Positions 4,250 to 21,881 of a stretch of 64,000 nt of DNA are shown in pieces. The notes below the pieces were generated by a model, which was given only the letters and a program-made list of their open reading frames with translations, ran no database searches and was not told the origin of the DNA. Each line of letters starts with the position of its first letter. Within the stretch, counting starts at the first letter, position 1. Source of the stretch: Planctomycetota bacterium (GTDB lineage: Bacteria; Planctomycetota; Phycisphaerae; Phycisphaerales; UBA1924); contig JBCBSM010000001.1 in assembly GCA_039819165.1 (NCBI GenBank), forward strand, positions 1,364,001 to 1,428,000. The letters are read 5' to 3'. Both the position numbers and the translations under genes were made by a program.

Positions 4250-4262
4250 TTGTCAAAGAGCC
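4250..4262 (-). promoter_or_regulatory. boxA-like antitermination site
   Basis: The minus strand reads GGCTCTTTGACAA, against the bacterial boxA consensus TGCTCTTTAACAA (11 of 13 match). It lies about 90 nt downstream of the promoter and about 240 nt before the 23S gene. NusB/S10 binding is expected from the family of sites, not shown here. Confidence 0.65.
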
Positions 4263-14889: not shown

Positions 14890-14962
14890 GCCCCGCGCCG
14901 TGGCTCCGCGCCGGATCGGCCACGCTCACGGTGGATCGCCGCGGCTACCGATACGCTACTCC

Positions 14963-16492
14963 GTGAGCCAGCCGCCCCCCGACCGCACCCCCGCCTCGCT
15001 GATCGGCCGCGCCTCGCGTGTCTTCCTCGTCGGCATCGGCGGTGCGGGCATGTCGGCCATCGCCCGCGTGCTGGCGGCCCGTGGCGCGGAGGTCCACGGC
15101 TGCGACGCCACCGCCACGCCCATCACCGACGCTCTGGCCGCGGACGGGCTACGGCTGGCCATCGGGGACGACGCGGCGCTCCCGGGCGGCACCGATCTGG
15201 TCATCGCCTCGGCCGCGATCCCGGCCGACCACCCCGTCCGCACCCGGGCCGACGCCTCGGGCGTGCCCGTGCTGGGCTACTCGGCCGCGCTCGGTGGACT
15301 GATGGACCGCCACACGGGGATCGCCATCGCCGGCACCCACGGCAAGAGCACCACCGCCGCCATGCTGGGCGCAGCCCTCGTCGACGCGGGCCTCGATCCC
15401 ACCGCCATCGTCGGCGCCACCAGCCGGCAGCTCACCAGCGGCGCGCTCGCCGCGGACGAAGGTCCGGTCGGCTCCCGCCTCGGAGCGCCGGTGGTCCCCC
15501 GGGGCCCGCTCGCCGGCCGCCCGGGCCTGCTCGTCGCCGAGGCGTGCGAATTCAACCGCTCCTTCCTGGACCTGCGGCCGACGATCGGCTGCATCGGCGG
15601 CATAGAGGCCGACCACCTCGACCAGTACGGATCGCTCGGCGCGGTCGTCGACGCCTTTGCGCGCTTCGCGGCGTTGCTGCCGCCCGCCGCCGACGGCGGC
15701 GTGCTGCTCATGGGCCACAACGACCCCCACCGCTTGACGGTGTCTGCAGCAACCTCGGCCCGGGTCGAGACGGTCGGCTGCAACCCGCACGCCGACTGGA
15801 CGGCGACCTACGACGAGCCATCGGGAGTCGTCTCTGTGCGGCACGGCGGGACCCAGGCCGCGTGGCGGCAGCGGATGCCCGGCCCACACAACGCCGAGAA
15901 CGCCGCCATGGCCTTCGCGGCCGCCTGCACCGCGGGCGCGGACGCATCGGTTGTCGCCGAATCGCTCGGGGCCTTCCGAGGCGTCGACCGACGCTGCCAG
16001 TTGCTCGGCGAGCGCCCGGTCGCCGGCGGCGCGGTCCGCGTCTACGACGACTACGGCCATCACCCCACCGAGGTCGACGCCACGCTGCGGGCCATCCGCC
16101 GTGCCGAACGGCCCGAGGCCCGCGGCGGGCGGCTGATCGCGGTCTTCCAGCCCCACCAGCACACGCGGACGCGGTTCCTGCTCGACGGCTTTGCGGCCTC
16201 GTTCTCCGCCGCCGACCACGTCGTCGTGCCCGAGATCTACCGCGTTCGCGAGACCGAGGCCGACCGGCGCTCGGTCGGCGCCCAGGACTTGGTCAATCGT
16301 GTGCAGGCGCAGGGCGTGGACGCGGTGCACGTGCATCCGTTCGCGAACGTGGTCGCGCACCTGGACCGCGCATGCCGACCTGGCGACGTCGTCGTCGTCA
16401 TGGGCGCCGGTCCGGTGTGGCAGGTCGCCCGCGACTTCATGGCCAACGGAGCGCCGCGGGACGCAACCCGGCCGGCGGTCGCCCATGCCTGA
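14963..16492 (+). CDS. murC: UDP-N-acetylmuramate--L-alanine ligase
   Basis: MurC adds L-Ala to UDP-MurNAc using ATP, the first stem-peptide step of peptidoglycan synthesis. Visible motifs are the N-terminal Rossmann VFLVGIGGAGMSAIA, the ATP-binding GTHGKSTTAAM near residue 124, EACEFNRSFL, and the GPHNAENAAMAFA and DDYGHHPTEVDATL blocks of the central and C-terminal Mur domains. It has 509 residues, close to the family norm. The GTG at 14963 is used because the Rossmann strand follows at once. The end overlaps murB by 8 bp. Confidence 0.95.
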   Translation: MSQPPPDRTPASLIGRASRVFLVGIGGAGMSAIARVLAARGAEVHGCDATATPITDALAADGLRLAIGDDAALPGGTDLVIASAAIPADHPVRTRADASGVPVLGYSAALGGLMDRHTGIAIAGTHGKSTTAAMLGAALVDAGLDPTAIVGATSRQLTSGALAADEGPVGSRLGAPVVPRGPLAGRPGLLVAEACEFNRSFLDLRPTIGCIGGIEADHLDQYGSLGAVVDAFARFAALLPPAADGGVLLMGHNDPHRLTVSAATSARVETVGCNPHADWTATYDEPSGVVSVRHGGTQAAWRQRMPGPHNAENAAMAFAAACTAGADASVVAESLGAFRGVDRRCQLLGERPVAGGAVRVYDDYGHHPTEVDATLRAIRRAERPEARGGRLIAVFQPHQHTRTRFLLDGFAASFSAADHVVVPEIYRVRETEADRRSVGAQDLVNRVQAQGVDAVHVHPFANVVAHLDRACRPGDVVVVMGAGPVWQVARDFMANGAPRDATRPAVAHA

Positions 16493-18355: not shown

Positions 18356-19360
18356 ATGGCACGATCGAGCACCAAACGCGGATCCAAGAAGGCCACCAAG
18401 AAACGCGGCTCGTCGCGGGCCGCCGAGACGCCGACGGCGTGGCCCGCCCGGCGCATCGCGGTGCTGGTGGCCAGCGTGCTCATCGCGACCGGCGTCGTGC
18501 TCGCGGGCGGCCTGGGCATGCCCGCGCTCCGCGACCACGCGGCGGGCATCCTGGGGACCCGCCAGCCCACCCTCGCGCTGCACCTCTACCCGCCACGCTG
18601 GATGCCGCGGGACGAGGCCGAGCGCATCCGCCGGCTGGCCAGCGACGCCTACGCCGAGACGGCCACGGATGCCGCCAGCCCGAGCCGCGAGGCGCTCAGC
18701 GCAGCGCCTCTCAAGGCGATCCACGACGTGCTGGTCGATACCGGCTGGGCCGCAACGCCGCCCCGCGTCCGCCGCGGGCGGCTGGAAGCCGCCGCCGACG
18801 CGGAAGCCCGCCCGCGCAGCGACGTCATCGTCGAAATGGCCTGGCGACGCCCCGCGGCCGTGGTCCGCTGGGTCCCCCGCACGCTCGACGGCACCCGCGG
18901 CGCGATCCGAGATACCGCCATCGACCGCGAGGCCCGGGTGCTGCCGCTGGCCGGCCCCCCCGAGTCTCTCGCGGGTTGGCCCGTGATCCTCGTGCCCCAG
19001 GATACGCCCACCGCCACCGGCGCCGCCGGCACCACATGGCCGGGCCGGGACGTCGCCGACGCCCTGGGCCTGCTCGAACTGCTGGCCGACGAGGAGTTCT
19101 TCGAGCAGGTCGCAGCCGTCGACCTGGCCGAGTACGCGCGCGGCCGCCGGATGCTGCTGGTGTCCAGGCGGGGTGGCCGCGTGGTCTGGGGTGCACCCGA
19201 GGAGGCGGGCGTCTTCCAGGGCGAGGTCGACGACGCCCGCAAGCTCGCCAATCTCCGAAGTCTGGTGCAGGCCACCGGCTACATCGACGGCGGCGAGGCC
19301 CGCACCGAGATCATGCTGTCGGGCCCGGTCGTGCTCGAGGGCGACCCCGGCGCGCCATGA
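18356..19360 (+). CDS. FtsQ/DivIB-like membrane protein
   Basis: A 334-residue bitopic protein. It has a basic cytoplasmic tail (SSTKRGSKKATKKRGSSR), one membrane helix at about residues 33-55, and an extracytoplasmic domain. The domain carries a divergent FtsQ-like pattern: VEMAWRRPAAVVRW, then an IDREARVLPLAG element, then GWPVILVPQ, comparable to the beta-domain 'd..G.vLP......lP.i' pattern. Together with its place after ddl this supports FtsQ, a divisome scaffold. Similarity is weak and the call rests largely on context. Its stop overlaps the next ATG (ATGA). Confidence 0.6.
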   Translation: MARSSTKRGSKKATKKRGSSRAAETPTAWPARRIAVLVASVLIATGVVLAGGLGMPALRDHAAGILGTRQPTLALHLYPPRWMPRDEAERIRRLASDAYAETATDAASPSREALSAAPLKAIHDVLVDTGWAATPPRVRRGRLEAAADAEARPRSDVIVEMAWRRPAAVVRWVPRTLDGTRGAIRDTAIDREARVLPLAGPPESLAGWPVILVPQDTPTATGAAGTTWPGRDVADALGLLELLADEEFFEQVAAVDLAEYARGRRMLLVSRRGGRVVWGAPEEAGVFQGEVDDARKLANLRSLVQATGYIDGGEARTEIMLSGPVVLEGDPGAP

Positions 19361-20745
19361 CCGCCACTGACGAGCAGGCCGTCCGCGGCTCGCCCGCGCA
19401 CGACCGCTGGGCGCACCGCCGCGCCGAGCCCCGAATGTTCGCGTTCCTGTGGGCGGTCTACCTGCTCGCCGCGGGCCTCTCGACCCTGGGCGTGGCGCTC
19501 ACCCGCGGGCCATGGACGCTGCTGGACAAGTCGGTCTACCAGCACGCGGCCCGCATCATGCTCGTCTGCGTGGCGCTGGGCGTGGCCGTGCTGTGGCCCA
19601 TGGTCCGCCTGAGCCAGCAGGTGCCCGCGAGCGGCCGATCGTGGCGGGCCATCGCCAAGGACCTCGTCGTGCTCGTGCTGCCGGTGCAGGCGGTGCTCTG
19701 GGCGCAGGCCGCGGCGCGATCGGGCTGGGCACTCGACCTGATCGCCGCGATGTCCGCGGCGCTGCTCGCCTGGCCGCTGCTCCTCGGCGCGCTGCTGGCC
19801 GCCGTGCTGCGCGGACCCTCGCCCGCCCCCCGCGATGGCGCTCCGCGGAGCGTCTTCGCCGGCGTGGACGGGCCATCGGCGGCGACGCGCTCGCTCGCCA
19901 TGGCCGCCGTCATCGCCCTGGCCCTGCTGCCGCTGCTCGCCCTGGCGACCGGGCCGGCCTGGGCGGCCATGCTCTCGCCGGTCTCCGCCGTCGTCGATCT
20001 CGCCCGCGAGCGCGACGTCGGCCCTGCTGCGTCGTCGGTGGTCGACGGCCGCTGGGCCGCCCTCGCCGCCCTGGGAGCCGCCGCGGTCGTGGCCTGGCTC
20101 GGCGTCTGCCTGCTGGAGATCGCCAGCCCTCCCGCTCGCGGTGAGGGCCCTGAGGGCGCACGCCCCGGGGGCGAGGGCCCAAGTGGTCGCTCACCGGCGG
20201 ACCAACTAGCATCTCCTTCGGTCCCGGGCACGGACGACCACGCTCAGGCGGGCCCTCGCACGGAGGAGCACTCCCCCATGGACATCATCACGCCCGAAGA
20301 GAAGGCCAAGCTCCAGCAGCGGCTGGCCGACCTCATCGCGAACCGGCCCAAGATCTCCGCCCGCATCGCCGAGGCCCGCGCCCTCGGCGACCTCAAGGAG
20401 AACGCCGAGTACCACAGCACCCGGGAACTCCAGGGCCTCGAGGAGGCCGAGATCCGCCGCATCGAGGAGCGGCTCGGCACCGCCCAGGTGGTCGACGACG
20501 ACCTCGCCAAGGACGCCCAGGTCGTGTTCCTGGGCTGCATGGTCAAGATCCGCGAGGTCGGCAACGACGTGGACGAGATGGTCAAGCTCGTCGGCGAGTT
20601 CTCGGACGATCCGCCCGACGACTACGACGAGGTCACCGTCGCCAGCCCCATGGGCAACGCCCTGATGAAGGCCCGCGTCGGCGAGACCGTCCGCGTTAAC
20701 GCCCCCCGCGGCGTCAAGCGGTTCGAGGTCGTCGAGATTCTCTAG
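19357..20745 (+). CDS. Polytopic membrane protein ORF that continues in frame into GreA
   Basis: The ATG at 19357 overlaps the FtsQ-like stop codon by 4 bp, so translation from here is likely. The first 260 residues hold about six hydrophobic segments and no recognised family. No stop codon then occurs before the greA stop at 20745. The two are joined by a linker of about 50 residues rich in Gly, Pro and Ser (..RGEGPEGARPGGEGPSGR..). Either this is a real membrane-tethered GreA fusion, or the membrane ORF is terminated by something not visible (for example a sequencing frameshift) while GreA is made from its own start. GC-rich inverted repeats lie in the linker at 20126-20182. Confidence 0.5.
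   Translation: MTATDEQAVRGSPAHDRWAHRRAEPRMFAFLWAVYLLAAGLSTLGVALTRGPWTLLDKSVYQHAARIMLVCVALGVAVLWPMVRLSQQVPASGRSWRAIAKDLVVLVLPVQAVLWAQAAARSGWALDLIAAMSAALLAWPLLLGALLAAVLRGPSPAPRDGAPRSVFAGVDGPSAATRSLAMAAVIALALLPLLALATGPAWAAMLSPVSAVVDLARERDVGPAASSVVDGRWAALAALGAAAVVAWLGVCLLEIASPPARGEGPEGARPGGEGPSGRSPADQLASPSVPGTDDHAQAGPRTEEHSPMDIITPEEKAKLQQRLADLIANRPKISARIAEARALGDLKENAEYHSTRELQGLEEAEIRRIEERLGTAQVVDDDLAKDAQVVFLGCMVKIREVGNDVDEMVKLVGEFSDDPPDDYDEVTVASPMGNALMKARVGETVRVNAPRGVKRFEVVEIL
20278..20745 (+). CDS. greA: Transcription elongation factor GreA
   Basis: GreA rescues backtracked RNA polymerase by stimulating transcript cleavage. The protein is 155 residues. The N-terminal coiled coil is clear: EEKAKLQQRLADL, then the signature EARALGDLKENAEYHSTREL. 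The C-terminal FKBP-like domain ends VRVNAPRGVKRFEVVEIL, close to the family's usual C-terminus. The ATG at 20278 is preceded by GGAGGAG, a strong ribosome-binding site about 11 nt upstream, which argues for independent initiation even though the upstream membrane ORF reads through in the same frame. Confidence 0.9.
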   Translation: MDIITPEEKAKLQQRLADLIANRPKISARIAEARALGDLKENAEYHSTRELQGLEEAEIRRIEERLGTAQVVDDDLAKDAQVVFLGCMVKIREVGNDVDEMVKLVGEFSDDPPDDYDEVTVASPMGNALMKARVGETVRVNAPRGVKRFEVVEIL

Positions 20746-20818: not shown

Positions 20819-20987
20819 CCGACCTACGCCACCCCGCGCGACGCGGGTGTGACCGGCTTAAGGCCCTCGACGACCAACCCGACGCCGAAATGCGGCCGCG
20901 ACGGATCCCAAGCCTGCGGTACTCTTCGTGTATCGCAATGCCGACGCGGGCCCGCACGCGGACCGCGCCGGCGGAAGGAGGATCCCC

Positions 20988-21881
20988 ATGGCGGCACCCG
21001 GCACACTGGCGGCGATCCGCAGGACCGCGGCGTGCGGCGCACTGGCCGGCGGCGTGGCCGCGGGCGGCGTCGCGGCCGGCCTCTCCAGCGGCTGCGCGTT
21101 CCACGGCTCGCACTGGGGCCACGCCTCGTACCACCAGGCCGACTACGAGCTCAGCATCTCGGCCGAGCACCCCGGCGAGCCGCCCGACCTGGTCAAGGTC
21201 GAGAACTCCAACGGCAGCGTCCGCGTGGTCGAACACGACGACGCGAGCACCATCGTCATCGACGCCACCGTCCGCCTCCGCACCGACGACCGCGCCGAGC
21301 GGTTCGACATACTCGCCTCGGTCGAGGCCGGCAACGTGCTCCGCGTTCGCCCGCTCTGGCCCGACGGCCGCAAGCTCGGCAACGAATCGTGCTCGTTCCG
21401 CATCGCCGCACCGCGAGAGACCGCGCTGGACGTCCGCACCAGCAACGGCAGCATCGTGGTCGAGGGCGGCGACGAGGGCGCCGTGCTGCGGAGCTCCAAC
21501 GGGGCGATCACCGTCGTCGATCGCGCGGGCTCGCTCGTTGCCACCACCTCCAACGGCAAGATCACCGTCCTGCGCACCCGCGGCGAGCTCGACCTAGAGA
21601 CCTCGAACGGCGGCATCCGCGTCGAGGACGCCCACCTCGGCGACGGCGCCCTGCGCGCGGTGACCAGCAACGGCAGCATCAACGCCGAGATCGGCGACGC
21701 CCTGCCGGGCCGCGTCTACGCCCGCACCACCAACGGCACCGCCCGCATCTACCAGCGGCCCGAGGGCGGCTCGACCAAGACCATCGCGCGAGGCCGTACG
21801 CTGGAGCTGGCCATCGGCGACGCCTCGGGCGAGGTCGACCTCCGCAGCTCCAACGGCTCGGTCACGCTGACCACCCGCTGA
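20988..21881 (+). CDS. DUF4097-type beta-repeat lipoprotein
   Basis: A 297-residue protein with an Ala/Gly-rich signal ending SSGC (lipobox), so it is probably lipid-anchored in the cell envelope. The mature part contains repeated beta strands with a TSNGSI-type core (ENSNGSVRV, RTSNGSIVV, RSSNGAITV, TTSNGKITV, ETSNGGIRV, TSNGSINAE, TTNGTARIY, RSSNGSVTL), the hallmark of DUF4097 beta-solenoid proteins. The function of the family is unknown. AAGGAGGA lies 7 nt before ATG 20988. It ends at a bidirectional hairpin terminator shared with the convergent gene. Confidence 0.88.
   Translation: MAAPGTLAAIRRTAACGALAGGVAAGGVAAGLSSGCAFHGSHWGHASYHQADYELSISAEHPGEPPDLVKVENSNGSVRVVEHDDASTIVIDATVRLRTDDRAERFDILASVEAGNVLRVRPLWPDGRKLGNESCSFRIAAPRETALDVRTSNGSIVVEGGDEGAVLRSSNGAITVVDRAGSLVATTSNGKITVLRTRGELDLETSNGGIRVEDAHLGDGALRAVTSNGSINAEIGDALPGRVYARTTNGTARIYQRPEGGSTKTIARGRTLELAIGDASGEVDLRSSNGSVTLTTR

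Follow-up and report, generated by a model that had tools for sequence, protein, structure and literature searches.

In the genus represented by the window (the whole 64,000-nucleotide stretch of planctomycete DNA analyzed here), the gene for a six-helix membrane protein and the gene for the transcription factor GreA form one continuous reading frame. This gene fusion is genuine and specific to the genus. The explanation that we consider reasonably probable is that the fused locus makes two products: a membrane-GreA protein translated from the upstream gene, and free GreA, which would be expressed through a promoter, leader, and start codon that lie inside the fused frame.

Architecture of the fused protein

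The fused ORF occupies positions 19357 to 20745 of the forward strand as a single open frame of 462 codons plus a TAG stop, with no internal stop codon, and encodes a protein of 48.8 kDa. Its start codon shares bases with the TGA that ends the ORF immediately upstream (ATGA). A preliminary description of this DNA had read the frame as passing from this coupled start through six hydrophobic segments and a Gly/Pro linker into a complete GreA, and translation, Pfam searches, and an AlphaFold2 model all bear out that layout. Residues 16 to 258 form the membrane domain, residues 259 to 307 the linker, and residues 308 to 462 the Gre factor. For the fusion, AlphaFold2 predicts (mean pLDDT 76.6) six long helices within residues 25 to 256, then a low-confidence linker from about residue 257 to 305, and finally a Gre fold.

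A stop-free frame taken alone is weak evidence for a fusion because this DNA is GC-rich; the fusion’s frame happens to stay open back to position 18439, and shuffled linkers are often open as well. However, the ORF is fused in all seven genomes of the genus and every difference in linker length is a multiple of three, and the arrangement therefore reflects more than chance.

The GreA portion (positions 20278 to 20745, forward strand; 155 amino acids, 17.3 kDa) is recognized by both Pfam and Foldseek. The N-terminal coiled-coil domain GreA_GreB_N (PF03449) matches residues 310 to 378 with 67.9 bits against a cut-off of 24.5, and the C-terminal domain GreA_GreB (PF01272) scores 56.5 bits against a cut-off of 26.9. 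Foldseek aligns this portion with 1grj and with further solved structures of GreA, GreB, and Gfh1. The acidic tip reads GDLKEN, and its residues D345 and E348 (fusion numbering) are invariant in the seven fused genomes. In Escherichia coli GreA, D41 and E44 at the coiled-coil tip are described as necessary for transcript cleavage (PMC6829880). Because the score against the NCBIfam GreA model TIGR01462 (127.4 bits) falls under the NCBI naming cut-off of 139, we file the domain as a member of the Gre family that is closest to GreA, and not under that named model. The fusion is the only PF01272 match in the window’s genome, and a search of that genome with the whole protein and with PF01272 recovered no second, free GreA gene.

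The membrane part (positions 19402 to 20130, forward strand) includes a conserved WAHRRxEPR motif and, after the second of its six helices, the sequence WPMVRLSQ. Divergence at the three codon positions among the six relatives (.236/.180/.427) reveals protein-level constraint, and the membrane gene is therefore functional and in use. Based on the modeled helices, the N-terminus and the even loops of the fusion together carry nine basic residues (K or R) versus four in the odd loops. This balance, together with the number of helices, suggests that the C-terminus, and with it GreA, is placed inside, in the cytoplasm.

Modeled alone, the membrane domain reaches a pLDDT of 87.4 and adopts a fold like that of ABC-2-type permeases. 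Members of that group (PmtCD, NosY, ABCG2, and ABCA1) align to the six-helix model with a best Z of 12.8 and an rmsd of 4.5 to 4.6 over 202 of 247 residues, although helical bundles can reach such Z values without kinship. We take all 50 matches listed for this structure comparison to be ABC transporters, in part by their titles. The likeness is kept at the level of resemblance because the best Foldseek E value for the domain is 0.44 and a Pfam search with 28 members, read up to an E value of 1, yields no ABC-2 profile. The membrane part thus differs from ABC-2-type permeases in lacking their sequence profile, and also in that no ABC ATPase occurs among the neighboring genes scanned. No model of either Pfam or NCBIfam matches the membrane family above cut-off.

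The fusion sits in a cell-wall gene cluster, where it follows a Mur ligase gene (positions 14900 to 16492, in the murC position), murB, ddl, and the ORF of 334 amino acids whose stop it overlaps (positions 18356 to 19360, forward strand). This last ORF reaches no Pfam cut-off and matches nothing in NCBIfam; presumably, ftsQ is the gene to be expected at its position. Among five loci of relatives that were scanned upstream of the membrane gene, four have a MurB match and two have ddl, such that each locus has at least one of them. On the other side of the fusion, the ORF at positions 20928 to 21881 has a weak match to DUF4097 (Toastrack) that lies below cut-off. In one relative (locus L144), the ORF downstream of greA at positions 4261 to 5283 matches DUF4097 just over cut-off.

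Distribution of fused and separate genes

The fused frame is free of stops in all seven genomes of the genus, and the relatives’ proteins share 59 to 63% identity with that of the window. We read the DNA of 121 loci from the 163 genomes of the bacterial family that were searched, with 42 left unread. This sample was chosen rather than random: it comprises roughly one representative of each genus, further genomes with long “open frames,” 18 of the 20 matching genomes of genus g83, all eight of genus g55, and some of those of g39 and g3. The fusion is present at seven loci, all from this genus, whereas 99 loci carry the two genes separated by a stop and 15 lack a membrane match in the stretch read. 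Outside the genus, none of the 114 family genomes read is fused.

Across the family, greA mostly lies next to the membrane gene. At least five of the 15 genomes without a membrane match at the locus (G067, G116, G122, G123, and G171) carry the membrane gene elsewhere, and G070 has no ATG near the expected GreA start. Open-frame lengths had suggested fusions in other genera (for example, in G013, G023, and G139), but the DNA reveals a stop between the parts in these cases, as it does in every locus fetched from outside the genus that has a membrane match.

These data also bear on whether an error of sequencing or assembly in the linker could have removed a stop codon or a base. The named relatives are assemblies of uncultured cells (metagenomes), which lends this concern some weight. 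However, the same open fusion recurs in seven of seven assemblies at the protein identities given above, which rules out such an error as the origin of the fusion; we consider it exceedingly improbable. The preliminary description had proposed examining whether the fused frame is conserved in relatives and had named separate genes in close relatives as a result that would count against it. Conservation holds within the genus and fails outside it, and separate genes are indeed what the other genera have. Thus, the fusion is derived, and the reading of these separate genes as a sign of error falls away.

The linker DNA as a candidate greA control region

The linker codons 259 to 307 (positions 20131 to 20277, forward strand) encode a segment that is disordered in the model, and their composition and substitution pattern are like those of noncoding DNA. 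We predict that this DNA doubles as the control region of greA, with promoter-like boxes, a leader, and a Shine-Dalgarno sequence. Specifically, a -35-like TGGTCG (positions 20184 to 20189, forward strand) stands 17 nucleotides before a -10-like TAGCAT (20207 to 20212, forward strand), and a Shine-Dalgarno-like GGAGGAG (20262 to 20268, forward strand) precedes the GreA ATG at 20278 by 9 nucleotides. All seven fused genomes carry TGG(C/T) in the same place as the first box and TA(G/A)CAT as the second, and the other six genomes of the genus have AGGAAGG at the corresponding Shine-Dalgarno place. The promoter-like boxes, as well as the structured leader discussed below, add to the preliminary description, which had pointed to the internal ribosome site as a hint that free GreA may be made. 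Because this site is conserved in all seven genomes, free GreA is very probably made in addition to any fusion product.

The -10-like box has a further property that may explain how the two genes became joined. Its TAG is out of frame in the window, and in many relatives the TAG or TAA with which this box opens is the stop codon of the membrane gene. In all seven fused genomes the box lies in phase +1, such that six of them read it as xTA GCA T and one as xTA ACA T. In this genus the box is therefore out of frame and supplies no stop, and ribosomes read on.

Support for the box comes from the 80 loci with separate genes to which these counts apply. At 58 of the 80, a TANNNT hexamer occurs within 20 nucleotides of the membrane gene’s stop. 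When these 58 unfused loci are aligned on TANNNT, positions -23 to -20 are occupied by T (72%), G (57%), G (78%), and C (55%), and the hexamer that begins with them lies exactly 17 nucleotides before the box. Moreover, among the 45 relatives whose membrane gene ends in TAA or TAG, this stop opens the -10-like hexamer in 33 (for example, L008, L010, and L011), compared to a background of 82 in 440. A plain consensus promoter scan found nothing at nine of 12 matches. Despite this null result, we infer that the boxes constitute comparative evidence for a real greA promoter. The stop codon of one gene inside the -10-like box of the next makes a compact stop-promoter overlap, and if such a box slipped by one base relative to the frame, two genes could become one. 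A brief literature search yielded no clear precedent, by title, for stop codons that overlap a -10 box.

The leader that follows the box is predicted to form two hairpins in six of the seven fused genomes, and the window’s own leader is shorter and different. For these hairpins, 94.9% of cells are paired, versus 28 to 48% when the structure is slid. Covariation is weak, in that two pairs have changes on both sides and 138 of 500 shuffles score as high. An Rfam scan of three loci revealed no known RNA family in the leader; the one microRNA match, with an E value of 0.28, is a chance match and falls outside it. We also considered whether a 21-base block of the leader is a genomic repeat, but it is present as one exact copy per genome in six of the seven genomes and is absent from the window’s genome.

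A search of the 130 nucleotides before greA with loose criteria found terminator-like hairpins with T runs at 36 of 87 loci (for example, L095, L119, and L121), compared to 18 of 87 in shuffled sequences and 7 of 87 on the reverse strand.

A precedent for a structured greA leader is GraL, the leader RNA of E. coli greA, a gene described as having a promoter to itself and a structured leader ahead of its start codon (PMC6829880). As far as GraL is described in that source, the fusion genus would resemble it if its promoter-like boxes and predicted hairpin leader work as such. Its leader, for which Rfam gave no match, differs in that it would also be translated as part of the fusion. By analogy, the greA leader hairpins of the family are possibly attenuators like GraL.

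Retention of the frame and possible roles of an anchored GreA

If the linker DNA serves greA, it is reasonable to ask whether the frame through it is kept by selection or is simply tolerated. Between the box and the ribosome site, the three codon positions diverge by.26/.31/.305 among the six relatives and by.338/.375/.420 among all seven genomes. Before the box, the values are.353/.356/.421 and.409/.392/.489, respectively. In neither stretch does the third position exceed the others by more than a little. The GC content of the linker at third positions is.67 to.74, compared to.91 in the genes. Conservation of the linker as protein can be ruled out given that codon periodicity is almost absent. 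This absence and the low third-position GC indicate that no linker peptide is clearly preserved, although flexible linkers would give the same picture.

The lengths of the linker offer a different view. Its segments measure 160, 136, 133, or 127 nucleotides before the box and 71, 113, or 128 after it, and the differences are always multiples of three, such that greA is in phase 0 with the membrane gene in all seven fused genomes. Counted by hand on a tree, at least five length changes have occurred, all by threes, which would have a probability of approximately 0.004 by chance if each change were random. Helix 6 belongs to the first segment, and coding by itself would maintain multiples of three there, yet the alignment gaps lie beyond this helix. 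In g83, a genus without the fusion, the two genes stand in all three relative phases, distributed 8/5/5 among 18 of its 20 matching genomes.

None of the seven linkers contains an in-frame stop, nor do the 210 nucleotides before greA. Each linker stays open in 33 to 57% of shuffling trials (P.33 to.57), and the product is approximately.0025 if the genomes are independent. However, 11 of 14 wrong-frame readings of the linker outside the box are also open, and the absence of stops alone may therefore be evidence as weak as approximately 0.2. The chance estimate thus ranges from about 0.2 to 0.0025 depending on the model, and these are tests made after the fact on seven related genomes. Taken with the lengths, the data give moderate support to the view that the linker frame is kept by selection.

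One possibility is that the run-on is tolerated: the stop was lost when the box shifted phase, the C-terminal GreA is harmless, and only the free GreA from the internal promoter matters. The manner in which the linker evolves, like regulatory DNA and not like protein, fits this explanation, as do the conserved boxes and ribosome site and the leader hairpins predicted in six of seven genomes. Running on also happens elsewhere, as eight of 80 unfused frames extend at least 90 nucleotides past the membrane match. In five of the eight genomes of genus g55 (L120, L165, L166, L167, and L168), the membrane frame crosses the box and the leader and stops 4 or 13 nucleotides before greA. Given that these frames run through unfused, running on is not special to the fusion. 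However, the frame ends in g55 vary, lying at -4, -13, -42, -56, or -113 (the last at the box itself), and this spread has arisen in a genus that is less deep than the fusion genus in the tree as drawn from 55 genomes chosen by hand. In the diverged fusion genus, by comparison, the frame has survived at least five length changes. We therefore consider tolerated run-on unlikely. The run-on frames of g55 were also considered as a sister state of the fusion, but g55 does not group beside the fusion genus, in a tree whose backbone is weak.

Alternatively, the frame might persist because ribosomes translating it cover the hairpins of the greA leader and thereby let transcripts from the upstream operon reach greA, with the fusion as a by-product. 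The g55 stops at -4 or -13 in five of eight genomes have the geometry of translational coupling, and the terminator-like hairpins in 36 of 87 greA leaders, as found by the loose search relative to its shuffled and reverse-strand controls, could be the structures so covered. Coupling, however, needs only a stop near the greA start, whereas none of the seven genomes of the fusion genus has an in-frame stop within the 210 nucleotides before greA. We regard this explanation as quite improbable.

The two-product explanation accounts for the locus as follows. Elsewhere in the family, the membrane gene often ends at or beside the -10-like box of the putative greA promoter. A phase shift in the ancestor of the genus would have put the box one base out of the membrane frame, and ribosomes translating the membrane gene, on meeting no stop, would cross the promoter, leader, and Shine-Dalgarno sequence and enter GreA in frame. 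If the boxes are a working promoter, one product would be free GreA of 17 kDa, made from that promoter, the leader, and the internal start. The other, of 49 kDa, would join the six membrane helices to a cytosolic GreA through a flexible tether of approximately 50 residues. Because the membrane gene is functional and no stop precedes GreA, its translation should yield this fusion. Thus, judging from the sequences, both free and membrane-anchored GreA are probably made in the genus. The tethered GreA would face the cytoplasm, where it could reach RNA polymerase, and selection would keep the frame.

A more specific proposal is that, in addition to free GreA, these bacteria permanently maintain a pool of the factor anchored in the membrane. 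The ABC-2-permease-like anchor might then bring transcript cleavage to RNA polymerase at the membrane, or might couple the state of the membrane protein to the rescue of backtracked polymerase. We offer this proposal tentatively, as a possibility that is open to considerable doubt.

Gre domains in larger proteins are already known, and what appears to be new here is the addition of a membrane anchor to a known factor by gene fusion. The Gre portion has the same coiled-coil N-domain with an acidic tip and the same C-domain as free E. coli GreA (1grj) and other Gre factors, but in this genus it also ends a larger protein, as the C-terminal domain that follows six membrane helices. The long GreA fusions represented by the NCBIfam models PRK14720 and PRK06330 likewise have Gre at the C-terminus, and the Gre part of the window’s protein matches the C-terminal end of both models. 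In contrast, the protein has no match to their N-terminal parts. Conflict-system proteins are described as using the GreA/B-C domain inside multidomain proteins with effector, TPR, and PIN domains (PMC8195603). Relative to the proteins as described there, a whole GreA follows a membrane domain in the fusion, beside cell-wall genes. Our search, which was thin on subscription journals, found no membrane-domain fusion of GreA, and that source was the one relevant result on tethered or fused GreA in general.

The fusion ties to greA a membrane family that matches no Pfam or NCBIfam model. If cells make the fusion and it is active, we would know of no earlier transcript-cleavage factor that is tethered, and the membrane organization of RNA polymerase rescue would become testable. 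Should the proposal of an anchored GreA pool be true, the fusion would serve as a “Rosetta stone” by which an entire membrane family of planctomycetes could be assigned to transcription elongation.
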